A DNA stretch of 20,404 bases from a virus: positions 1 through 20,404 of IMG/VR virus record IMGVR_UViG_3300042323_000213; one strand, written 5' to 3'. The position numbers and the translations under genes are program-made. Shown piece after piece: positions 2,723 to 19,040 of the stretch; the stretch's first letter is position 1, and each line of letters begins with the position of its first letter. The notes below the pieces were generated by a model. That model did no database searches, was not told the origin of the DNA, and saw only the letters and a list, made by a program, of their open reading frames with translations.

Positions 2723-3451
2723 CTATTTAGTGAATACACCTTTTTTAATTAATTTATCTAATATATTTGCACATGCAATATCTAATGCTTTTTTAGTTGA
2801 GATACTAATTGTAGATTGATTGAATTTAATCGGGTCTATTGTTGCATCAGAAACTAATGTTAATTGTCTATTTGTTTTAGCTTCACCTAAACCGGATGCT
2901 GCGATAATAGCTCCAGTCTCAGCATTTGTGAATCTAACCTGCAAACCCAAACGAGTTACCAAGTTATCTTTGATACCATCTTTTAAGTTGATAGTTTCAT
3001 CTTCTGATACTGAATAATCATATACTTCAATTTCTACAAAATAATGTGCTAATTTAATATTTCCTCTACCTTGAATTTTGTTTTCAGAAATACCAGCATT
3101 TGATGCTTTGAATTGAGCAACCATTCTGTTCTTAATTTCTGTTTTATCTTCGGTGAATTCAAATCTATTAAGGTTATCCAAATATTCCAATACGATATTT
3201 GCAACACCCAATCCAACTCTCTTTTCTTTTAATTCAGGATACATTTCGTACACTTCTTCACCAATACCACATTTAAGGATTTGAATATACTTCTTTGGAC
3301 CTTCGTAATCTAAATATGCAGATATATCTTTCTTTTTTTCAAAATCTGCTTTGAATTCTTCTGTTTTAGTACTTCCTATTGTTTGAGCATGTAGGACACC
3401 CACACCACTCGTAATTAACAATATACCTAATAATACGATTAATTTTTTCAT
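2723..3451 (-). CDS. CsgG-like secreted protein
   Basis: The product has 242 residues, with a signal peptide at 1-23 (hydrophobic core IVLLGILLITSGVGVLHAQ). The mature part follows the CsgG plan: KKYIQILKCGIGEE, a helix with RVGLGVANIVLEYLDNL, then a strand-rich part with GRGNIKLAHYFVEIEVYDY and a C-terminal helix KKALDIACANILDKLIKKG. CsgG forms the outer-membrane pore that exports curli subunits in enterobacteria, and CsgG-like genes have been described in marine T4-like phages. Unlike E. coli CsgG there is no lipobox cysteine, so it should be soluble or differently anchored. No curlin repeat protein is visible in the window. An ATATTTAT motif lies 17 bp before the start. A FlgT- or LpoB-type relative of the same fold is the main alternative. 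Confidence 0.7.
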   Translation of the reverse strand: MKKLIVLLGILLITSGVGVLHAQTIGSTKTEEFKADFEKKKDISAYLDYEGPKKYIQILKCGIGEEVYEMYPELKEKRVGLGVANIVLEYLDNLNRFEFTEDKTEIKNRMVAQFKASNAGISENKIQGRGNIKLAHYFVEIEVYDYSVSEDETINLKDGIKDNLVTRLGLQVRFTNAETGAIIAASGLGEAKTNRQLTLVSDATIDPIKFNQSTISISTKKALDIACANILDKLIKKGVFTK

Positions 3452-3467
3452 ACATAAATAATTTATT

Positions 3468-3475
3468 ATAAATAT
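3468..3475 (-). promoter_or_regulatory. ATATTTAT motif, candidate phage promoter for the CsgG-like unit
   Basis: The minus strand reads TTATATTTATAATAAA here, directly after the T-run of the terminator at 3483-3502 and 17 bp before ATG 3451. The same 8-mer precedes six other genes or units in the window. No upstream -33 element is present. Confidence 0.5.
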
Positions 3476-3482
3476 AAAAAAA

Positions 3483-3502
3483 GGGAGAAACGATGTTCTC
3501 CC
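3483..3502 (-). terminator. Intrinsic terminator after the DUF2589 unit
   Basis: The stem is GGGAGAA (3483-3489) with TTCTCCC (3496-3502) and a 6-nt loop. On the minus strand it is followed by seven T residues (3482-3476). It lies just after the stop at 3508. Confidence 0.85.
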
Positions 3503-3507
3503 CTAAT

Positions 3508-3984
3508 TTACTTTACATTTGGGTCTTCTAGATTTTTGATATATTCATCAATCAATCTACTTACAGCTTCAGGTTTTTCATCCGCCTTAAACTTAACTTT
3601 TATTTTAGCCATCCCGGCTTCACTTGGATTATATCCTGAATCAACTTCAATACCTTTGATATTGTGTTCGTATCCCTTTTTCTTAAATAACCCCAATAGA
3701 GATTTTTTAAGACTGGATACTTCCTTTTCTTCATCACCAAATATAAGTCTACAAGTAAACTCAATATCTAGCTCGTCTAATCCAATAGATGAATGGTCCG
3801 CCAAAATATAAAGAGGTACAACCAAATCCTTACCACCTATATTAAAGGTAGTGGTTTTGGGTGTACCATCTTCATTGAAATAGTTTCGGAGAGCATTAAT
3901 ATGCTGTCTTTCACTTATACCTTGAGAAACCATGGCGGCCTCTAAAAGACCGCCAACTAGTTCCTCTACATTTAATCTTGCCAT
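3508..3984 (-). CDS. DUF2589-like protein
   Basis: The product has 158 residues with no signal peptide or membrane segment. The order of elements matches the DUF2589 protein encoded just upstream. There is an N-terminal helix with LVGGLLEAAMVSQ, then VVPLYILADHSSIGLDELDIEF, which parallels VPLLPLVPLPSLAITSADIEF-type segments of the family. A closing AKIKVKFKADEKPEAVSRLIDEYI follows. The two proteins are therefore probably diverged paralogues that may form a hetero-oligomer. The family has no assigned function that I know. Start ATG 3984 follows an A-rich leader of AAAAT repeats. It is the last gene before the terminator at 3483-3502. Confidence 0.7.
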   Translation of the reverse strand: MARLNVEELVGGLLEAAMVSQGISERQHINALRNYFNEDGTPKTTTFNIGGKDLVVPLYILADHSSIGLDELDIEFTCRLIFGDEEKEVSSLKKSLLGLFKKKGYEHNIKGIEVDSGYNPSEAGMAKIKVKFKADEKPEAVSRLIDEYIKNLEDPNVK

Positions 3985-4011: not shown

Positions 4012-4626
4012 TTACTTCTTACCACCACCAGTTGCTGGGTCTTCAGTAAGTGGAATTAAAGATGGTTCTAACATTTGAGTTAGGTAATCTGATAATTTCA
4101 ACATACCTTCGGTTGCTGGTAATTGTTCAGCGTGTACTTTTACGTTGTATTTAGCTGAGTTATCAGTACTTCTAGTGTTCTCTTTGTTTGTAGCTACTTT
4201 ACCAGAAATTTTTGCATTCCAGCTCATACCCCAAAATCTACCACCTGCTGATACTTCAACACTGCTTTCACTTTTTACTTCACTTTTTTCTGCTTCTGAA
4301 GTTTTTACTTCCATAGCAAATTCAATATCTGCTGAAGTAATTGCTAATGAAGGAAGTGGTACTAATGGTAACATAGGAACTTTACTATAAATTTTTTGTA
4401 GTTTTTGTTCACCTGTTGCACCATCGGTTACAACTCTGTTCATTTCAACATCTAAAGAACGTGCTTTAGTTTTTTTAGTTTTTTCATCCGTTACGAATGC
4501 TACTTCAGAAATGTATTTCCAAGTTACTTCGTTTAATTTTGCTTGACCTTTTGCCATACCAACAATCGGTGAAACAATCAAATCTTCAATAGGAAGACCT
4601 GCGAATTGGTCTGCGATACCTGCCAT
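4012..4626 (-). CDS. DUF2589 family protein
   Basis: The product has 204 residues. LPIEDLIVSPIVGMAKGQAKL (11-31), the linker PMLPLVPLPSLAITSADIEF (84-103) and the closing NVKVHAEQLPATEGMLKLSDYL (161-182) are the hallmarks of DUF2589. The middle, 108-160, is rich in K, E and S and less ordered. The family is widespread in bacteria, often as tandem copies, but its role is unknown to me. No secretion signal is present, so it should act in the cytoplasm or in the virion. It lies 27 bp upstream of a second DUF2589-like gene and 75 bp downstream of a zinc-ribbon gene. Confidence 0.85.
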   Translation of the reverse strand: MAGIADQFAGLPIEDLIVSPIVGMAKGQAKLNEVTWKYISEVAFVTDEKTKKTKARSLDVEMNRVVTDGATGEQKLQKIYSKVPMLPLVPLPSLAITSADIEFAMEVKTSEAEKSEVKSESSVEVSAGGRFWGMSWNAKISGKVATNKENTRSTDNSAKYNVKVHAEQLPATEGMLKLSDYLTQMLEPSLIPLTEDPATGGGKK

Positions 4627-4928: not shown

Positions 4929-4934
4929 AAAAAA

Positions 4935-4954
4935 GGGAGAAACTATGTTCTCCC
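4935..4954 (-). terminator. Intrinsic terminator at the end of the surface operon
   Basis: Stem GGGAGAA (4935-4941) and TTCTCCC (4948-4954), loop of 6 nt, six T residues following on the minus strand. It is 40 bp after the stop at 4994. Confidence 0.85.
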
Positions 4955-4993
4955 TTAAATACTTCCGCCCTTCCTACAGTTAAAGGAAATATA

Positions 4994-5272
4994 TTATCCT
5001 AATTCTTCTTCAGTCCCAGCATCCAATTTGTTCTTATCGTGTTCCGCTTTTCTATTGATGTACTTATCAACCGAAGCGATACCAAATGAACCCAATGTGA
5101 TTACTAAGAATCCGTTGAAAATATATTCGTTGATTAGTAATTCCTTACCCATATAACCTGTTATCAAGTCTACGAATAATGCAAGTACCATACAACCAAA
5201 TGATAAGAAACCAACTACTGATTTTTCGTTGATATCATTGTTGTCTTTGAATAATTCTTTAAAGAATCCCAT
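4994..5272 (-). CDS. Two-TM small membrane protein, holin-like
   Basis: The product has 92 residues. It has an amphipathic start (MGFFKELFKD), two membrane helices at about 18-41 and 48-69, and a charged C-terminus (KYINRKAEHDKNK ... EEELG). Size and plan fit class II phage holins, which time lysis by permeabilising the inner membrane. Holins share little sequence, so this rests on topology alone. It is the last gene of the operon, after two other small membrane proteins. No endolysin is visible nearby. Confidence 0.65.
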   Translation of the reverse strand: MGFFKELFKDNNDINEKSVVGFLSFGCMVLALFVDLITGYMGKELLINEYIFNGFLVITLGSFGIASVDKYINRKAEHDKNKLDAGTEEELG

Positions 5273-5315
5273 AATTTTACAATTTAATTAATTAATGTAA
5301 CAATACATAACTAAT

Positions 5316-5948
5316 TTATCCAGCTTGCTCAGCATCTTCATCTTTAATCTTTCCACACTTCAAACATTCTTCATCACCATCTCCGTCTAAGTCACCCCAA
5401 ACGTGCTCACATTGTCTGTGTGCGAAATATTCATCAATATCGCCATCACCATCGGTATCTAAACCATCCATTACACCATCGCCATCTTCATCAATTTCAA
5501 CCGGTGTAAAAGCTGCTTTAGGTGCTTCAACGATTGATGTTGATTCAACTACTGATTCAACTTTCGGTTGTGATTGTGCATTTGAAATAGCTGCGGTAAA
5601 TGCTTCTGGAATTAATGGAGTGTTGTTCGGTGGAGTTACAGGCATATCAGCGGTGTTGCTTAATGATGTACCATCTTCCTCATCCATCTTTTGTACTAAC
5701 ATCTTATCCTTATCGGTATCACTAAACCAATAATCAATAATCTTACCATAAGAACCGATGAAAGCTCCTAATAACAATAATAGAAGTTCTTTCCATTCTC
5801 CTTCTATTGCAGATTTGTTAAATATAGCAAAGAACATTCCTGCCATAATAAACATAAATCCACCCAACACCATAGCAGTAATCCACCATCTACGGCTCAT
5901 CATTTTATTTAATAGGTCTTTAAACCCACTTGGTTGTTGCTCTGCCAT
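5316..5948 (-). CDS. Two-TM membrane protein with calcium-loop and Cys/His tail
   Basis: The product has 210 residues. Two membrane helices lie at about 21-43 and 54-73. A low-complexity linker at 95-150 (rich in P, S, T, V, A) follows. The tail has tandem Asp-rich loops (DEDGDGVMDGLDTDGDGDID, 153-172) of the thrombospondin type 3 or EF-hand calcium-binding kind. After that, C180 and H182, a third loop DLDGDGDEE (186-194) and C195/C198 could bind zinc. The membrane part resembles phage holin or virion membrane proteins; the tail suggests a metal-stabilised extracellular or periplasmic end. A similar Asp-rich motif ends the 467-aa membrane protein at 17637-19040. Function unknown. Confidence 0.75.
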   Translation of the reverse strand: MAEQQPSGFKDLLNKMMSRRWWITAMVLGGFMFIMAGMFFAIFNKSAIEGEWKELLLLLLGAFIGSYGKIIDYWFSDTDKDKMLVQKMDEEDGTSLSNTADMPVTPPNNTPLIPEAFTAAISNAQSQPKVESVVESTSIVEAPKAAFTPVEIDEDGDGVMDGLDTDGDGDIDEYFAHRQCEHVWGDLDGDGDEECLKCGKIKDEDAEQAG

Positions 5949-5971
5949 TTTATATAAATTTTAGTTTTTTA

Positions 5972-6292
5972 TTACCACTCAGCTGGTTTCTCTTTGAATT
6001 CATCACCTTCTTTCTTCTTCTCCTTTGGAGCTGGTGCTGGTTGTGCCGTTCCACCATTTCCACCTTTGTTGATGATTACAGTTTTACCTGCTGCTTGAGA
6101 TTGTTGGTTAGAGTTTGTAATGTTAATTACTGGAGCTGCTGCCGGTGCCGGAGTTGCTTCTTTATCATCACCACCTGTTAATTTAGTTGTAAACCATCCA
6201 CCAACACCTAATGTGATTGTAGATACAAGTCCTAATAGTATGTTCTTTATTGAACCACCACCGCTTGATTGTTCTTGTTGTTCTTCTGCCAT
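5972..6292 (-). CDS. Small single-TM protein with Pro/Ala linker
   Basis: The product has 106 residues. A Gln/Ser/Gly-rich start precedes one membrane helix at about 15-38 (IKNILLGLVSTITLGVGGWF). After it come an Ala/Pro-rich spacer (PAPAAAP), a polar patch INITNSNQQSQ, a VIINKGGNGG strand and a Lys/Glu-rich end. It could be a spanin-like or holin-accessory protein, or a membrane-anchored virion part; nothing in the sequence decides. It lies 23 bp before the next membrane protein gene, which shares its MAE start. Confidence 0.65.
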   Translation of the reverse strand: MAEEQQEQSSGGGSIKNILLGLVSTITLGVGGWFTTKLTGGDDKEATPAPAAAPVINITNSNQQSQAAGKTVIINKGGNGGTAQPAPAPKEKKKEGDEFKEKPAEW

Positions 6293-6319
6293 TTTGTTTT
6301 TATTTTAATGTTACAAATT

Positions 6320-6691
6320 TTATAACTTATTGAAATCAGTAATACCAATCATCTTACCATTTGCATCATATAGAGCTATTCTATATGCAGATGCAGGTAA
6401 AGCGGTAGTATATACTTTTAATATATTATCTCCAGAATTTGCGTACATTACTTCTTTAGATACTACTCTATTTGCAATATCTAAAATTTTAACTGTCACA
6501 TTTCCTGCAGTTTCTAACTTTACGTTCATAGCCACTTCTGAAGTGACAAATTGAGATTGTAACTTAATACCAGCGGTTGCTGACATTTTTAATTCTGCGT
6601 TTGGATTTACAGGTTGAATTATATCAATTGGAGATTTTCTACATCCAACCAAGATGATTACTCCAAATAACACTAATAATACTTTTTTCAT
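6320..6691 (-). CDS. Lipoprotein with type IX sorting-domain-like fold
   Basis: The product has 123 residues. A lipoprotein signal ends in a lipobox LVGC at 14-17, so it should be lipidated and membrane-bound. The C-terminal 65 residues (GNVTVKILDIANRVVSKEV ... LPASAYRIALYDANGKMIG) show the strand pattern of the Bacteroidota T9SS type A sorting domain: V-x-I-x-D ... L-P-x-x-x-Y-R-I ... D-x-x-G-K. In secreted host proteins that domain sits at the end of a cargo; here it makes up nearly the whole mature protein. The next gene upstream encodes a paralogue with the same plan, 12 bp away. Confidence 0.75.
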   Translation of the reverse strand: MKKVLLVLFGVIILVGCRKSPIDIIQPVNPNAELKMSATAGIKLQSQFVTSEVAMNVKLETAGNVTVKILDIANRVVSKEVMYANSGDNILKVYTTALPASAYRIALYDANGKMIGITDFNKL

Positions 6692-6703
6692 TTTAATTCT
6701 ATT

Positions 6704-7057
6704 TTAATTTATTATCAGTAACGTTTTACCTATTTGGACACTATTCTCATCTTCCAAAGATAAATATAAATATCTAACAGGTAACGATTTTGTGTATAAC
6801 TTTAAGGAATTTTCCCCAATTTTACCAATTATTCTTTCTCTAGTAACTACTTGCTGACCTACTGAATCAAAAAGAGTAAGTGTATATATTCCTTCCGATT
6901 TTAAAGTGAACTTAAATTGTTCTCCGTTTCCAATAGATGCTTCTTTAACAGAAAATATATCTTCTACTTTTGGTGGTGGGGTTGGTTCTACTTCTACTTT
7001 TCTACAAGAGATTATAAAAACAACACAACACAATAAGATTAATATTAACTTTTTCAT
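6704..7057 (-). CDS. Lipoprotein, paralogue of the next gene
   Basis: The product has 117 residues. The lipoprotein signal ends IISC at 15-18, followed by RK and a Pro-rich spacer (EPTPPPK). The remainder matches its neighbour in layout: GIYTLTLFDSVGQQVVTRE, then GENSLKLYTKSLPVRYLYLSLED and a final KTLLIIN. This again resembles a T9SS type A sorting domain or the related Ig-like FlgD fold. Its ATG overlaps the stop of the upstream lectin/cohesin gene by one base (TAATG), so the genes are translationally coupled and the lipoprotein probably works with the secreted protein. Confidence 0.75.
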   Translation of the reverse strand: MKKLILILLCCVVFIISCRKVEVEPTPPPKVEDIFSVKEASIGNGEQFKFTLKSEGIYTLTLFDSVGQQVVTRERIIGKIGENSLKLYTKSLPVRYLYLSLEDENSVQIGKTLLIIN

Positions 7058-9348
7058 TATTTCATTTTTACTTTTAATGTGTTTCCGCTTTTATTTACTG
7101 CATCGGTGAATGAAATTGAAATTAAACCTAATACATTGTTCAATTTTGTTTGTGGTTTGAAACTGATTTTATATTCGGTAGTATTATCTAAAACCCCACC
7201 ATCAGTAATTAAAGAACCAAAATTTACATAATCACCTTTATCAGTTCCATAATTAGTTGGTGACCCCTTTGTCTTATAAGATACACTACTAAATTTCAAT
7301 AAACTATTATCGTAATTTAATTTGAATTGAGTTCCAACTAATTCTTGTTGTAATGGGTCAATCTTAATATATGCAGTAACACTATCTCCAATAATTTCAG
7401 TTATTATAGATGCGTTTATTTGATTTGATATTGGTAAACTCATTGGTATAACACTCATACTTCTAATAGAAGACCCTGCTATTGTAGGTGGAGTTTGTTG
7501 TGCCGAATGCGATAAGTTTACATCACCTATCCATGTAGCACTAACATTGTAAGTATTGTTTAATGTACCTGTATTTAAACTAAATGGATACAAACTTCTT
7601 GTATAATTGAATTGTGTATTCCAATTTGTTTTTGTTATAGCATCATATTCCGATTTACCATATAGTTTCATTAAATAAGTTAATGTCGAATATTGTGTAA
7701 GAGGTGCAACTCCTGTTAAGTGTTGTAATAATTTGTAAGTATCCGATTCATTGAATACTCCATTACCATCTACATCTGCGTTCATAAATTGAATGCCCGA
7801 TGTAAACTCTAATCCACTTTGATTTCCAAAAATACCACCATTTGATAATTCTTTAAATGCCAAATACACATCGGATACACTTACTATACTACTATATAAA
7901 TTGTTTAGTTCGGTTTGATTGGTATATGATAAATCAATTCCATGTTGTTTAAATACTGAATTTGGAGTAAATGTAAATTCTGCACTCCATCCCCAAAAAC
8001 TTCCAGCTCGTCTTATATAAGATGTAAATGATGAATTTGTGAAATTAAATTCTGTTGGTGTATAAATATAATATGCAGCCCATGTTCCATCATCCCATTG
8101 ATAAGTTACAGGTCCATCCCATACATCAAATAATTGTAAACTTGTAACATTACTTGGTGAAATACCTTGTGGGAATTCTCTTTTATCAATTAAAAGTTGG
8201 TATCGTTGATTTTGTGGTTCGTAATCATATACTACAAGCCACTCTACTTGTCCACCTGTTGTTGTTCCTCTAACACCATTACCATTTACTTTTATGGTAT
8301 CTAAATCATTTGTTAAATCAGTTTTACCCAATCCACTTATTGCTCTTGATGTATTAGTTGTTGTTCCCCATACATTATTTACATAAGTGTTTGCTTTGGC
8401 TGTAAATTTAGTTTCATCTACATTACTTCCAAAATCAATATTAAATCTTGCACTTAATACCTCTCCGTTTGTATGTGTTACTGAATTGGTATAAAACTCT
8501 GTAAATGTTGCGTTATCGGGATTAGTCCAAGTTCCAAATTCAATTACATAAGGATTTGAAAAATGGTTTGGTAAATCATTCCATTGAGAACCGCCACTCC
8601 ATTTAGTTACTGCGTAATCTTCGTTACCACTATTGTTTGGTTCACCCGGTGCCCAGTTATTATATTGACCAGGAATGTTTCCGTTTAGTTGGCCGTTATT
8701 GATTTTAATTAAAGTTCCTGCTTCAGGCCCTGCATCAATTGTCCATCTTGCTTCACTTGCTTCATCACTTAATGCAAACCAAATATTACCTTGTGGCACA
8801 TTATTGAAAATGAAAGCATCTTCATCGGCTGAAGTAATTGTTACCAAATATCCTTGTTGTCCTTTGAATGTTTGTTGTGATGCTAATGTTCTAGCATTTA
8901 TATAAGTTGCAGTTGTTGATATTGGTCTATAAAAATGTCCGTTTACACCATTGTAATAGTATCCCGTTGGGTTTATAGTTGCTGCTACTGATAATAAAAC
9001 ATTTCCTTTTACTGAACCTGTATTTACTTTTAATGATGCCAATGCTGTATTAATATTAGCCATTGTACCAGTTACCACCAAACGAGTCTTATTGCCCACT
9101 AATGTAAATCCACTTGCTGCGGTTAGGCCTGTTGTAGTAGTTAAATAGAAAGTTGTACCTGTTGGTGGGTTTACCAAACTGATTGATGCCAATAGCGTTG
9201 ATGTTGCATTGAACCCATTTAATACAAATCCACTTGCATCTTGTCCGTTTGTGGATTGTGTAAACGATTTAGAGTCCGGTGCAGATACACTCTGACCGAA
9301 CCCTAAATTTGTAATTAATAAAAATAAAAATATTAATAAGTTTCTCAT
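7057..9348 (-). CDS. Secreted C-type lectin protein with dockerin-like and cohesin-like domains
   Basis: The product has 763 residues with a signal peptide ending GFGQ (16-19). Residues 20-125 form a beta-rich Ig-like region. Residues about 127-272 are a C-type lectin-like domain: QGYLVTITSADEDAFI, IWFALSD, WAPGEPNN and QWNDLP. The EPN (236-238) and WND (256-258) calcium/sugar motifs are intact; EPN usually indicates mannose-type sugars. Residues 272-480 are unassigned beta-rich sequence. VSDVYLAFKE (491-500) and DVDGNGVFNESDTYKLLQHL (525-544) form a dockerin-like calcium-loop pair. Residues about 640-763 resemble a cohesin domain. It is probably exported and binds glycans on a cell or matrix. 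Its start overlaps the upstream stop by one base. Confidence 0.85.
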   Translation of the reverse strand: MRNLLIFLFLLITNLGFGQSVSAPDSKSFTQSTNGQDASGFVLNGFNATSTLLASISLVNPPTGTTFYLTTTTGLTAASGFTLVGNKTRLVVTGTMANINTALASLKVNTGSVKGNVLLSVAATINPTGYYYNGVNGHFYRPISTTATYINARTLASQQTFKGQQGYLVTITSADEDAFIFNNVPQGNIWFALSDEASEARWTIDAGPEAGTLIKINNGQLNGNIPGQYNNWAPGEPNNSGNEDYAVTKWSGGSQWNDLPNHFSNPYVIEFGTWTNPDNATFTEFYTNSVTHTNGEVLSARFNIDFGSNVDETKFTAKANTYVNNVWGTTTNTSRAISGLGKTDLTNDLDTIKVNGNGVRGTTTGGQVEWLVVYDYEPQNQRYQLLIDKREFPQGISPSNVTSLQLFDVWDGPVTYQWDDGTWAAYYIYTPTEFNFTNSSFTSYIRRAGSFWGWSAEFTFTPNSVFKQHGIDLSYTNQTELNNLYSSIVSVSDVYLAFKELSNGGIFGNQSGLEFTSGIQFMNADVDGNGVFNESDTYKLLQHLTGVAPLTQYSTLTYLMKLYGKSEYDAITKTNWNTQFNYTRSLYPFSLNTGTLNNTYNVSATWIGDVNLSHSAQQTPPTIAGSSIRSMSVIPMSLPISNQINASIITEIIGDSVTAYIKIDPLQQELVGTQFKLNYDNSLLKFSSVSYKTKGSPTNYGTDKGDYVNFGSLITDGGVLDNTTEYKISFKPQTKLNNVLGLISISFTDAVNKSGNTLKVKMK

Positions 9349-11030
9349 TAGTCTACTACAAGTTCTATCTTCTTACCAGTCGCATCAACAGCATCTGCTA
9401 GTACAAAGAAGAATAAACCGGCAGTATTGCTTAATGGAACTTTTGGTGTGAAGATTAATTTATATGGAATACCAGTTTTGATTCTAGAAACTTTTATTTG
9501 GTCAATAGAACCAAATGTTAATCTACCATTATCATGCGTTGAGAAATTGGTGATTGTAGAACCAGCATCAAATATTACATTATCTAATGTTAATTTTGTT
9601 GAATCATAATTCATAATAACCTGTAAACCCGCTAAACCTTCTTTGGTTAATCTAGTACTTAAAACAACTTTACCACCTTCTAATGTAGATACTACACTTA
9701 AAGATGCTTGTTCTAATTTAGCACTTTCATATGAATTTGATTGATATGAAGTCATCGCCATTGTTGACATACTCTTTATAGTAGCAACATCCGATGTGCC
9801 AGGATTAGCTGCATTTGTAAAGATACCACTTGCTATTCTTGCAGCTACAGTATCAGGATGAGATGAATGTGACCAATCCAAATCACCACCCCATGCAAAT
9901 ACAGCATCCACAGTTTGTGCGGGTTGTGTAACATATACTCTATATTTTGAAGTACCATCTAACCAACTCTGATTTAACAATCCACTATTCCATCTCCAAG
10001 AAGTTGCAGTTGATGTTGGTACAAATGCGTTAGCCGATACGTCTTGTCCCATTACATAAGCAAATGCGAAATACGAATCTGCTTCGGTGAAGGTCATATC
10101 ATTTTTAGTAATATTACCAATCTTCTTTTCTAAATTTGGTCTTGTAAAATAATTCGCAGTACCACTAATATCAGTTTGTGAAATACCTAAAAATGATTTG
10201 TATGCATCCGATACAGTTATTACATTATTCATCCAACTCTTTTGTGATGCGGGTGATACAAAAACACCCAATGAATCACCAACTTTAACACCTGATGTGA
10301 ATATAACCTCACCACTACCATCCAATGCTTTTTGTTGAAGTGGTTGTTGTGACCAATCAATATCACCAGTACCATCTGTTTTCAATCTCATTAATTGAAC
10401 ATTATGGTCAGCAATATTATATCCGGATGGGAATAGTACTCTTACTTTAAAGAAAGAAGTATTACCGGTAACTCCGCTAATTGATAAAGGGCCGGATGTT
10501 GTTTTTACATATGGAATATTTGCACCAGTAGCACTATCTAAACCATATGCTAAATCTAATTTGTGAAAGTTTTGATAAGTGTTTTGGTCTTTGATAATAT
10601 ACTTTTGAGTTGCTATTACACCATTAACCGATTGGTCTGCTCTTTGAACTGCTAATTGTCCAACGTTCCAATCCGCATTTACAGCATATCCCCAAGGTGT
10701 AGTGGTATATTGACCATATAAAGATGTATCACTCACATTTGCATTTGAGGTGAACTTATAGTTAGTCCAACCGGTATAATAAGTTTGTGATTGACTACCT
10801 TGTGAGAAAGCAGTAGATACATAAGTTAAAGCCTTATTATTAAATTGGTATCTTAACCAAAAATAACGTGGTTTAGTTGTACCTTTATCTACGCTATACG
10901 TTACCGTTACAGTATCGCCAACTTTATAAGGTCCTGCTGAAATAGATTGGTTTACAACTATTTGAGCTTCTGTATTAAATGATAATAGGGATATCACTAA
11001 TACTCCTAAAAATGTTAATAATTTTTTCAT
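9348..11030 (-). CDS. Secreted cohesin/dockerin-like protein
   Basis: The likely start is ATG 11030 (MKKLLTFLG), 1 nt after the upstream stop, giving 560 residues; a longer frame from 11051 would overlap the upstream gene. The signal peptide ends NTEAQ. The mature N-terminus (GPYKVGDTVTVTYSVDKG) looks like a cohesin or Ig-like strand pair. The centre has VSDAYKSFLGIS and NDMTFTEADSYFAFAYVMG, aligned with the dockerin-like part of the next protein but with fewer calcium ligands. The last 120 residues match the neighbour's cohesin-like end (LAGLQVIMNYDSTKLTLDNV ... GIPYKLIFTPKVPLSNTAGL). The two proteins are paralogous over this half. No lectin domain is seen. Secretion is clear; function is not. 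Confidence 0.8.
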   Translation of the reverse strand: MKKLLTFLGVLVISLLSFNTEAQIVVNQSISAGPYKVGDTVTVTYSVDKGTTKPRYFWLRYQFNNKALTYVSTAFSQGSQSQTYYTGWTNYKFTSNANVSDTSLYGQYTTTPWGYAVNADWNVGQLAVQRADQSVNGVIATQKYIIKDQNTYQNFHKLDLAYGLDSATGANIPYVKTTSGPLSISGVTGNTSFFKVRVLFPSGYNIADHNVQLMRLKTDGTGDIDWSQQPLQQKALDGSGEVIFTSGVKVGDSLGVFVSPASQKSWMNNVITVSDAYKSFLGISQTDISGTANYFTRPNLEKKIGNITKNDMTFTEADSYFAFAYVMGQDVSANAFVPTSTATSWRWNSGLLNQSWLDGTSKYRVYVTQPAQTVDAVFAWGGDLDWSHSSHPDTVAARIASGIFTNAANPGTSDVATIKSMSTMAMTSYQSNSYESAKLEQASLSVVSTLEGGKVVLSTRLTKEGLAGLQVIMNYDSTKLTLDNVIFDAGSTITNFSTHDNGRLTFGSIDQIKVSRIKTGIPYKLIFTPKVPLSNTAGLFFFVLADAVDATGKKIELVVD

Positions 11031-11031
11031 C

Positions 11032-11688
11032 TTACTTTGCGTTTTTACCAAATAGTTTTTTAATTAAACTATCCGATGCTTTTTTAAGGGCGTTGCTCAA
11101 GGAAGTTTGATTGAATTTACCACCCTGGTCAACAATTAACGTAGACATTGATATTTCAGATGAACTTTCTTCCACCACCACTTCTTTCTCCTTCTTTCCA
11201 TCTTTATAAAGAATACCTTGTAGTCTTACAACCACTTCTTCTTCTCCTTTATGAAAAACTGAAATATTTGTTTTTGTAGATAACACATCCAAATAAACAA
11301 TATTTACTTTTAATTTGTATGGTGCATCCGGAGCTAAATCATATCCTTTTTCCTGAAGATATTCTTCTAATATATTTTTTACCCCAAATGCCAAATTACG
11401 ATTTCCGGCTAATTTACCAATCTTAACCTGGTTTTCAACACCTTCAACCCAAACGTGGTCTGATTCTTCATACCAAATATTTTCTGGATTATTTTTGAAT
11501 GTACCGTCAATTCTATGAGTAATTTCATTAGAGAGTTCGGTAGCCCATTGTTCTCTACCACTAATTTGTAGAAATACAAAGAACAATTGGAATACGAGTG
11601 CAAATCCTATAAAAAGACCAACACCCAGTAAAAACATTTTGAACAATAACTCTTTAAAGTTCAAAACAGTTGATTTAATGTATTGCAT
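11032..11688 (-). CDS. Membrane-anchored protein, CsgG-like fold possible
   Basis: The product has 218 residues. An uncleaved membrane helix at about 14-42 is followed by a periplasmic-type domain. The region VKIGKLAGNRNLAFGVKNILEEYLQEKGYDL, the strands YKLKVNIVYLDVLSTK and VVVRLQGILYKDGKKEKEV, and a last helix FNQTSLSNALKKASDSLIKKL follow the order of small CsgG/YajG-type lipoprotein folds. The final segment is similar to the end of the 242-aa CsgG-like protein (FNQSTISISTKKALDIA...LIKK). It opens the surface operon and is 1 nt from the secreted cohesin-like gene. A role in moving or anchoring the secreted proteins is an inference from context. Confidence 0.7.
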   Translation of the reverse strand: MQYIKSTVLNFKELLFKMFLLGVGLFIGFALVFQLFFVFLQISGREQWATELSNEITHRIDGTFKNNPENIWYEESDHVWVEGVENQVKIGKLAGNRNLAFGVKNILEEYLQEKGYDLAPDAPYKLKVNIVYLDVLSTKTNISVFHKGEEEVVVRLQGILYKDGKKEKEVVVEESSSEISMSTLIVDQGGKFNQTSLSNALKKASDSLIKKLFGKNAK

Positions 11689-11787: not shown

Positions 11788-11820
11788 AAGAGTATCCAAA
11801 CATAAATATCGGATACTCTT
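11788..11820 (-). terminator. Intrinsic terminator after the sigma factor unit, with promoter motif in its loop
   Basis: The 10-bp perfect stem AAGAGTATCC (11788-11797) and GGATACTCTT (11811-11820) encloses a 13-nt loop, followed on the minus strand by TTTATTT. It lies 27 bp beyond the stop at 11847. The loop carries the ATATTTAT motif. Confidence 0.8.
11802..11809 (-). promoter_or_regulatory. ATATTTAT motif inside the terminator loop
   Basis: The minus strand reads CCGATATTTATGTTTGG. It is 114 bp before the start at 11688, the first gene of the surface operon. The 158-bp gap between 11688 and 11847 holds this hairpin and otherwise no recognisable feature. Confidence 0.4.
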
Positions 11821-11846: not shown

Positions 11847-12212
11847 TTATAAATTTCTCAATTTATAAAGGGTAGAATATATTAATTTCTCAACATTATC
11901 AACTTCGTTCTGTATCCAACTAGCTGATAATTCTTCGGTTTTTCTATTTGTTTGTACAAATTTTAATAGGTCTTCAAAGTATTCAATGATATTCTCAATT
12001 GATGCATCATTATCAATTCCCTTTACTGCTTTGAATTCAATCAAACCCGCCATTCCTTGATAACCTTCTACTAAACCATCTATTAATCCTACTATACCAT
12101 CGTAGTATGCTTCTAAAGCAAGATGTGGAGCTAATCCGTTTGGAGATACTCTTAAATGAAACACATGCGCCTGTGTTCTGCTGTGTAATAACATTGAAGC
12201 TAAATCTGTCAT
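11847..12212 (-). CDS. Dps/ferritin-like helical protein (DUF5856-like)
   Basis: The product has 121 residues, all helical. The N-terminal helix has H10, H16 and H19, followed by HLALEAYYDGIVGLIDGLVEG (30-50). The pattern H...H...H-x-x-x-E-x-Y-Y-D resembles the ferroxidase helices of Dps proteins (WH...F..LH...E..Y....D), and the size is slightly below Dps (about 150). I recall this phage family as DUF5856, whose role is not established. Dps proteins bind DNA and oxidise iron; whether the residues here form a metal site cannot be settled by eye. It follows the sigma factor gene by 18 bp and ends before a strong terminator. Confidence 0.7.
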   Translation of the reverse strand: MTDLASMLLHSRTQAHVFHLRVSPNGLAPHLALEAYYDGIVGLIDGLVEGYQGMAGLIEFKAVKGIDNDASIENIIEYFEDLLKFVQTNRKTEELSASWIQNEVDNVEKLIYSTLYKLRNL

Positions 12213-17636: not shown

Positions 17637-19040
17637 TTAATATGATTTACTTGAAAAATCGGTTGGATATTGAGAAGGTTTGATATGTTTTATCCAATAA
17701 TTAACAGCGTTTTGGTCATTTATCCAATGTTTACGGTCAGCCCAATTGAAATCAGGTCTAGCATAGTATGGTAACATATTTTGTATTGCTGCCGCTCTAC
17801 CAGGATGCGATGCTATAACTCTATTTATTAAACCATCACCATCGGTATCTATACCATCAGTACTACCATCACCATCCAAATCAATAGCTCTTTCTGAATA
17901 ATCAGTTTTAAGATTTAATAGTATTTCATCGGTGATTTCTGGTTCTAATGCTTTCTTTTCTTCATCCGTTAATGTAGCGTATTCCTCTTCCAAATTTGTT
18001 GGAGTGGCATCAATTTCGTTTTTTTTTATGTCCTCATTATATTGAGTAGCTGTATTAACTAACGTTTCGTTTGGTTCTGATGGATTTTCTATTTCATTAA
18101 AGAATACTTCCGCATCTTTTTCTGATAGAGTTATTGGTTCATTATACAATCCCAATTCCTCATCTCCTTTCATCATTTCAACTATGGCTTCTTTTTGCTT
18201 TTCCTTATCACCATATACTTCATATTCCTTATAATCATCATCTAACCCATCCCCCAATGTAACATCCCAATCTGATAAATCATCTTCTTCTTTTCGTTTC
18301 ATCAATAATCCATTAAATGCAATAATCAATGCAACCGCTAACGGGTCAAATACAATTACTATAATGAATATAAAGAATTTTACAACTGTATTAAGTGGTA
18401 CTCCAAATGCTTCTGCTACGAAACGGAATCCACCAACTTCTCTTTCTAATTCAATGTTGTTATTTTTGATTGCGTTAATTGAATCTAATGCAACATTGTT
18501 TTGTTTTGTCAGTTCATCAATACGTTTAGATACCGATGCAATTTCTTTATCGGCAGTTTTAATCATTTGTGAAACTCTTGAAGTTGATTTATCTTTATCT
18601 ATTTGTTTAGATAAATTAGCCTCTTGTGAGTTACGAATATTTTGTTGGTTAGTTAATTGAGTTGTATAACGGGCTATCTCTCCATCATTTTTAGTTATTT
18701 GAGTTTGATACACTGCGATATCTCTTTCAATCTTTTGTAATCCCAAATTTTGTTGTTGGAATGCGTTTGATAGATAACCAAAGATACCTGCTGATGTGAT
18801 AAGCATCAAAGTACCAACTGATATAGTTAAATACCATTTGTTAAATCCTTTAAGGGTATCCCATTCTTGTTTTAGGTATGTTGCAGCAACTAATTTAGCA
18901 AGTTCCAATGAACCTGCCATTACCATTACCGAAACCGATGCTCCGGCGAATAATACACCTAATCCAGTTACGGAGAAATAAGCCGCACATCCGGCAACAA
19001 GGATTGCTGAAAGTCCAACTAATACTTTTAACCAATTCAT
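17637..19040 (-). CDS. Four-TM coiled-coil phage protein with calcium-loop tail
   Basis: The product has 467 residues. Membrane helices are at about 5-24, 28-52, 70-92 and 219-245. Between the third and fourth is a long coiled coil (95-202, with ISKRIDEL-type heptads). SLELAKLVAATYL (44-56), LMLITSAGIFGYLS (78-91) and FDPLAVALIIAFN (231-243) are strongly conserved-looking and resemble a protein common in large marine phages. The tail is acidic and ends with a calcium-type motif (LDGDGSTDGIDTDGDG, 388-403) followed by HPGRAAAIQNMLPYYARPDFN. The coiled coil should lie outside the membrane on one side; whether it is a virion or host-membrane protein is open. Confidence 0.75.
   Translation of the reverse strand: MNWLKVLVGLSAILVAGCAAYFSVTGLGVLFAGASVSVMVMAGSLELAKLVAATYLKQEWDTLKGFNKWYLTISVGTLMLITSAGIFGYLSNAFQQQNLGLQKIERDIAVYQTQITKNDGEIARYTTQLTNQQNIRNSQEANLSKQIDKDKSTSRVSQMIKTADKEIASVSKRIDELTKQNNVALDSINAIKNNNIELEREVGGFRFVAEAFGVPLNTVVKFFIFIIVIVFDPLAVALIIAFNGLLMKRKEEDDLSDWDVTLGDGLDDDYKEYEVYGDKEKQKEAIVEMMKGDEELGLYNEPITLSEKDAEVFFNEIENPSEPNETLVNTATQYNEDIKKNEIDATPTNLEEEYATLTDEEKKALEPEITDEILLNLKTDYSERAIDLDGDGSTDGIDTDGDGLINRVIASHPGRAAAIQNMLPYYARPDFNWADRKHWINDQNAVNYWIKHIKPSQYPTDFSSKSY

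Follow-up and report, generated by a model that had tools for sequence, protein, structure and literature searches.

Background

Several lipoproteins that mobile elements encode are well known: Llp of T5 and Cor are superinfection-exclusion lipoproteins of phages, and TraT is a surface lipoprotein of the F plasmid. In this study, we analyzed an operon of eight genes (A-H) and an associated ninth gene (I) in the viral record IMGVR_UViG_3300042323_000213; the window, as the term is used here, is the entire viral contig of 20,404 bases. The operon is real, and its gene set is conserved far beyond chance. On balance, we think that it is a phage-encoded system by which the infected Bacteroidota cell comes to show modular adhesins on its outer surface. 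The gene set is common to large viruses that infect Bacteroidota of lakes and seas.

Related elements have been described separately. Cryophages carry genes with type A sorting domains of the type IX secretion system (T9SS), one of which encodes a PA14 protein (PMC7468147). Jumbo myophages that encode ribosomal protein bS21 are predicted to infect freshwater Bacteroidetes, and surface remodelling was proposed by the authors from their lipopolysaccharide (LPS) genes (PMC9723584). In Capnocytophaga, the lipoprotein surface-export signal LES, C-X-K-(D/E)2-X, was defined experimentally (PMC5080379). The cultured Flavobacterium phage vB_FspM_immuto (MW353177), hereafter immuto, holds a cluster homologous to the operon, annotated by domain only ('lectin C-type', 'cohesin domain-containing'). 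An earlier note on this DNA, made from the sequence alone, had stated that it knew of no described phage system of this composition. The immuto cluster narrows that statement, and what stands of it is that our literature search on phages with cohesin/dockerin modules or T9SS found no paper on this system or on the function of the immuto cluster.

Results

Organization of the operon

The earlier note had placed eight coupled genes between one promoter motif and one terminator. All eight open reading frames were found, on the minus strand. They are listed here with gene I, the motif ATATTTAT and the associated hairpins.

Hairpin around the motif before A, between the phrog_858 gene and A, minus strand: arms AGAGTATCC/GGATACTCT, seen by eye
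ATATTTAT motif before A, 11802..11809, minus strand: in the hairpin loop between the phrog_858 gene and A
A, 11032..11688, minus strand: membrane-anchored; N-terminal transmembrane segment plus YajG/TraT-like (Lipoprotein_16) periplasmic domain
B, 9348..11030, minus strand: predicted secreted protein; a cohesin-like domain at the N-terminus, then a beta domain, degenerate dockerin-like helices and a cohesin at the C-terminus
C, 7057..9348, minus strand: predicted secreted protein; N-terminal beta domain, C-type lectin (residues 136-275), variable beta region (276-477), dockerin-like region with one calcium loop (478-545), C-terminal cohesin (643-763)
D, 6704..7057, minus strand: lipoprotein, paralogue of E; invariant lipobox Cys
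E, 6320..6691, minus strand: lipoprotein; family mostly with a surface-export-like signal and a domain similar to the C-terminal sorting domain of the T9SS
F, 5972..6292, minus strand: small protein with a weak hydrophobic segment, strongly conserved alongside gene I
G, 5316..5948, minus strand: membrane protein; acidic DxDGDG repeats and a Cys/His motif at the C-terminus (alignment)
H, 4994..5272, minus strand: small protein with two transmembrane segments, holin-like
Terminator-like hairpin after H, 4933..4956, minus strand: hairpin scan
Terminator-like hairpin just upstream of gene I, 3481..3504, minus strand: hairpin scan
ATATTTAT motif before I, 3468..3475, minus strand: motif scan
I, 2723..3451, minus strand: signal-peptide protein, the most conserved core member

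The coupling of the genes was as described: the ATG of B, at 11030, is one base from the stop of A at 11032, and single bases are common to B and C (9348) and to C and D (7057) in TAATG-type overlaps. The terminator-like hairpin lies 3' of H, at 4956-4933. The claim of three small membrane proteins holds for G and H, which have transmembrane segments, and less well for F, whose hydrophobic segment is weak. The system is larger than the eight-gene span: gene I, with its own ATATTTAT motif, is in the conserved set.

Recurrence in large phages

Relatives were loci fetched from viral contigs, which reach 287 kb, by searches with C (79 loci) and with B (72 loci). The fetched loci partly overlap and contain 100 distinct B genes; 149 loci were used in the counts. 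The earlier note had proposed looking for the same gene order in other large phages, and it is there, with the order A-H conserved in about 100 distinct loci of uncultured phages; ABCDEFG(H)I is kept in about 100 of the 149 partly overlapping loci. The gap between A and B is at most 5 nucleotides (nt) in 87 of 90 distinct loci, and that between B and C in 81 of 85. Gene I co-occurs with the rest in 116 of the 149 loci. Most genes flanking the operon in the window turn up in about 6-33 loci only, and conservation of the block thus exceeds that of its surroundings.

Ribosomal protein bS21 is encoded in seven of eight large contigs, which places these phages near the published T4-like jumbo phages of freshwater Bacteroidota; the window group and the bS21 jumbo phages of PMC9723584 are probably the same phage group. 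In one of these contigs (G004), genes for terminase, portal, head protease and major head protein lie near bS21, and the operon is ~190 kb (contig coordinates) away from this structural module. We found no support for a universal presence of the operon in T4-like phages that have this major head protein: among 11 contigs with a related head protein, most of them fragments, a single one had gene I. Among 84,980 prokaryote genomes, gene I had matches in two, and both contigs hold the same cluster and look like phage. Because gene I is nearly confined to phage-like contigs, the system is phage-specific and does not stem from the capture of a host operon; its modules (cohesin, dockerin and sorting domain) are nevertheless of host type.

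A second group surrounds immuto, whose counterpart of gene I is 54-56% identical. The immuto I gene as query yielded 80 further loci, in which a secreted protein, F, I, A and a gene designated J recur (F in 77 loci). These loci often also hold G, H, a lectin protein and an endolysin.

Domains of the secreted proteins B and C

The structure predictions that the earlier note had proposed were carried out for B and C and confirmed the cohesin fold. In AlphaFold2 models (pLDDT 79.6 for C and 85.3 for B), the best Foldseek matches in PDB were cohesins, with E-values of 3.5e-7 (C) and 4e-7 (B) and TMt of 0.6-0.7. The Pfam cohesin family PF00963 was matched in 21 of 36 C homologues, the window proteins falling below its cut-off. 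B and C are paralogues in their C-terminal halves (hhalign 99.8-99.9%); homology of the N-terminal cohesin-like domain of B to the N-terminal domain of the relatives was unsupported (hhalign 0.7%).

The C-type lectin of C is present both as a fold and in its calcium/sugar ligand residues. Window C matches Lectin_C (PF00059) with 24.1 bits (cut-off 22.6), the family is matched in 34 of the 36 homologues, and the domain matches the CD23 lectin in Foldseek (TMt ~0.73); the EPN, E and WND calcium/sugar residues occur in 36/36. The N-terminal, lectin and dockerin-like parts of C are conserved. Its middle region drops to 22% identity and has an insert of ~108 residues in some members. Among relatives, glycan-type domains are swapped next to the lectin: Laminin_G_3, PA14 and LCCL (the last matched in five C homologues). 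C may thus bind a conserved glycan via calcium, with exchangeable extra domains beside the lectin.

Less was left of the proposed dockerins. One canonical dockerin F-hand calcium loop, of the DVDGNGVFNESD type, occurs in all 36 C homologues and the second loop is lacking; B has essentially none, with a canonical loop in 1 of 33 homologues. Neither protein has the two loops that characterize dockerin type I (PF00404; Pfam 0.11 for window C). No catalytic (glycoside hydrolase) domain was found in the secreted proteins, no enzymes were found in the operon, and none of A, B, C and I could be assigned to a PHROGs family.

These domains bear on the proposal of cellulosome-like polymerisation, by which the dockerin of one chain binds the cohesin of another and fibres or a mat form on lipoprotein bases. 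Cohesin folds and dockerin-like helices do lie within the same polypeptides, and the single loop of C is invariant; however, paired F-hand loops are found in neither protein, B has lost its loop, and cohesins also occur as non-cellulosomal modules. We consider this arrangement unlikely.

Export signals and sorting domains

B and C have predicted type-I-like signal peptides, and D and E have lipoprotein signals whose Cys is invariant in family alignments, both in agreement with the earlier note. D and E are paralogues (hhalign 97.9%). Most E homologues have C-x-K-[DE]-[DE] after the lipid Cys, matching LES: K is at +3 in most, and D/E is at +4 and +5 in 45% and 70%, respectively. The signal of D is weaker.

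E also weakly resembles the T9SS sorting domain (hhalign 36.9%, E-value 3.6e-4). In the window group, this domain (PF18962) exceeded the cut-off in 0 of 8 genomes; five had sub-threshold matches, several of which fall at the E lipoprotein. In most of the immuto group, the cohesin/dockerin protein carries the sorting domain: the fused protein of ~635 residues has it in 19 of 19 cases, a cohesin in 15 and a dockerin in 6, and each of seven genomes has exactly one sorting-domain match. The lectin-type partner in that group gains Laminin_G_3, PA14 or GEVED domains. When viral proteins were searched by fold with B, the first match was a phage protein named for its sorting domain, and the next two were entries whose lengths fit immuto_14 and _15.

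Promoter motif and expression

For the promoter claimed by the earlier note, a general sigma-70 scan was uninformative, its hits being no commoner than in shuffles (34 versus 51.4), and what stands is the ATATTTAT motif upstream of A. In the window, this motif occurs 11 times on the minus (coding) strand and 0 times on the plus strand (chance mean 6.5). As the total is only modestly above chance, the argument rests on strand bias and placement. The motif is upstream of A in 57 of 90 loci and of I in 27 of 74, and never of B, C, D, F, G or H. A match upstream of E was discounted as a promoter, since it overlaps the D coding sequence (YLYL). Strand-specific and placed 20-50 nt ahead of many genes in these phages, ATATTTAT is a candidate general or late promoter. 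It also precedes several structural-module genes (head, neck), which suggests late or general productive-phase expression; the operon is probably expressed late.

Discussion

Proposed display of adhesins on the infected cell

From folds, motifs, gene linkage and signals, all computed, we infer the surface destination, anchoring, glycan binding, envelope roles and function of these proteins. B and C would leave the cytoplasm by their signal peptides and, in the window group, may end at the cell surface, as the sorting domain of relatives and the surface-type signals of the E family suggest. D and E may serve as lipoprotein anchors, and A, I and F-H as envelope-side support, a role to which their conserved linkage points. 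Expression would fall in the productive or late phase, given the motif on head and neck genes. The likeliest purpose would be to alter the adhesive or receptor properties of the cell surface; this could block adsorption of further phages (superinfection exclusion), keep progeny off debris, or promote cell-cell or particle adhesion.

Three observations weigh against display. Late expression is a poor fit to classical early superinfection exclusion; the E protein of the window reads CRKSPID, departing from the export-signal consensus; and no window protein passes the T9SS cut-off, which bears on the route by which B and C would cross the outer membrane.

A more far-reaching version is less likely than not. 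A dedicated envelope apparatus, specific to phages and made up of A, F, G, H and I with an outer-membrane barrel, would export or anchor modular lectin/cohesin fibres on the infected cell late in infection, using host type IX secretion in one lineage and, in that of the window, a sorting domain moved to a separate surface lipoprotein. This would be a new class of system. If the display reading is right, lytic phages that are widespread on aquatic Bacteroidota would rebuild the host exterior with sugar-binding fibres, possibly by the host's own gliding/type IX export route, and infection would be tied to adhesion, aggregation and phage-phage competition where Bacteroidota process polysaccharides. 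With immuto on Flavobacterium sp. LMO8, these ideas are testable now.

Envelope proteins and a possible role in lysis

Protein A had been called CsgG-like. The CsgG family (PF03783) had no match at E≤10 in the eight large contigs and immuto, and A appears to be YajG/TraT-like instead: its homologues match Lipoprotein_16 in 27 of 27 cases (best 2.4e-6) and TraT in four, and window A scores 23.2 bits against a curated cut-off of 25. A transmembrane segment is predicted at its N-terminus. In one locus (L163), the transmembrane and YajG-like parts are separate genes, which suggests that A arose by fusion of two parts that interact. The CsgG-like resemblance of gene I is by eye only, homology between A and I is weak (hhalign 35%), and nothing useful came from searching PDB profiles with A, B and I. 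A match to the superinfection-exclusion protein Cor was rejected because it covers the signal peptide only. G shares acidic DxDGDGxxDGxDxDGDG repeats, in the C-terminal part, with another membrane protein of the window (17637-19040, minus strand).

The membrane proteins could also be read as a lysis module, with H (perhaps G) as holin, A, I and outer-membrane proteins as spanin-like components, and the secreted proteins opening or shedding the outer layer. In 13 of 31 distinct endolysin loci of the immuto group, the endolysin gene immediately follows H, at a gap of -1 to 7 nt, and lectin-type genes precede it in 10 of the 31; endolysins are also near the cluster in 32 window-group loci and in L163, and the promoter motif is common to structural genes. 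In the window itself, H has two transmembrane segments, no adjoining endolysin and a PHROG holin value of 0.21. We nevertheless hold a lysis module to be improbable: chitinase and holin of immuto are annotated separately, ~30 kb off, an endolysin of G008 lies within the structural module, and lysis needs neither cohesins nor lectins with sorting domains.

Neighbouring genes and possible nutrient capture

A TonB-dependent receptor (CarboxypepD_reg, Plug, OMP_b-brl_3) lies at 3-1625 of the window (minus strand), open at the contig end. It is full length in relatives (e.g., L031:17123-19600 and L045:16263-18740; 70-98% identity), where a lipoprotein gene of ~398 codons (L031:19597-20793) follows with a 4-base overlap; more distant relatives of the receptor are present in further records of uncultured phages. 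Outer-membrane-barrel-like proteins, encoded inside or downstream of the operon, form two clusters, cluster 9 (L125:6382-7275) in 39 loci and cluster 7 (L033:18064-19482) in 87. The latter is J, which follows the operon; these proteins have no Pfam family save a low-complexity match. A secreted DNA/RNA non-specific endonuclease (PF01223, 4.9e-18; L061:16738-17361), which could act on incoming DNA, is encoded close to the cluster in 24 loci and adjoins that of immuto (immuto136C_12). Between H and I, the window has a DUF2589 protein (5.6e-30; 4012-4626, minus strand) and a neighbour gene (3508-3984, minus strand), an insertion found in only ~14 related loci. The phrog_858 gene (starvation-inducible regulator family; 11847-12212, minus strand) adjoins A, and its relative L160:13800-14171 sits inside the G004 structural module.

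Glycan-binding surface proteins plus an outer-membrane transporter might instead capture nutrients or polysaccharides to feed replication, to which the receptor and lipoprotein genes, the nearby barrels and the lectin, laminin-G and PA14 domains would be suited. We give this idea little credence, as the transporter homologue is present in only 21 of 149 loci, A-I being near universal, and no glycoside hydrolase domain was found in the secreted proteins. That particles acquire B and C as virion decoration or adhesion proteins is very improbable: lectin domains are common on virions and ATATTTAT is common to structural genes, but Sec signal peptides, lipoprotein signals and T9SS domains route the products away from cytoplasmic head and tail assembly, and the G004 operon is far (~190 kb) from its structural module.

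Comparison with known systems

Although the bS21 jumbo phages were linked to surface remodelling, the words lectin, cohesin, lipoprotein, TonB and secreted are all absent from the main text of that report (PMC9723584). The cryophages have three variable cargo genes (endoglucanase, GH39 and PA14), without the conserved cohesin/lectin operon and its envelope proteins. The clostridial cellulosome shares cohesin and dockerin-like modules with B and C; unlike it, the phage system is without scaffoldin array, two-loop dockerins and enzymes, and has a lectin instead. Immuto comes nearer: the block immuto136C_13 to _19 contains homologues of A (1e-8), F (1e-18) and I (1e-97), together with a protein of C-type lectin and dockerin and with cohesin proteins. 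It differs in that one of the cohesin proteins has a T9SS sorting domain at its end and the D/E lipoprotein pair is absent. Llp, Cor and TraT are analogies drawn from general knowledge: A is weakly similar to TraT, and in place of a single small protein these phages encode a multi-gene adhesin system.

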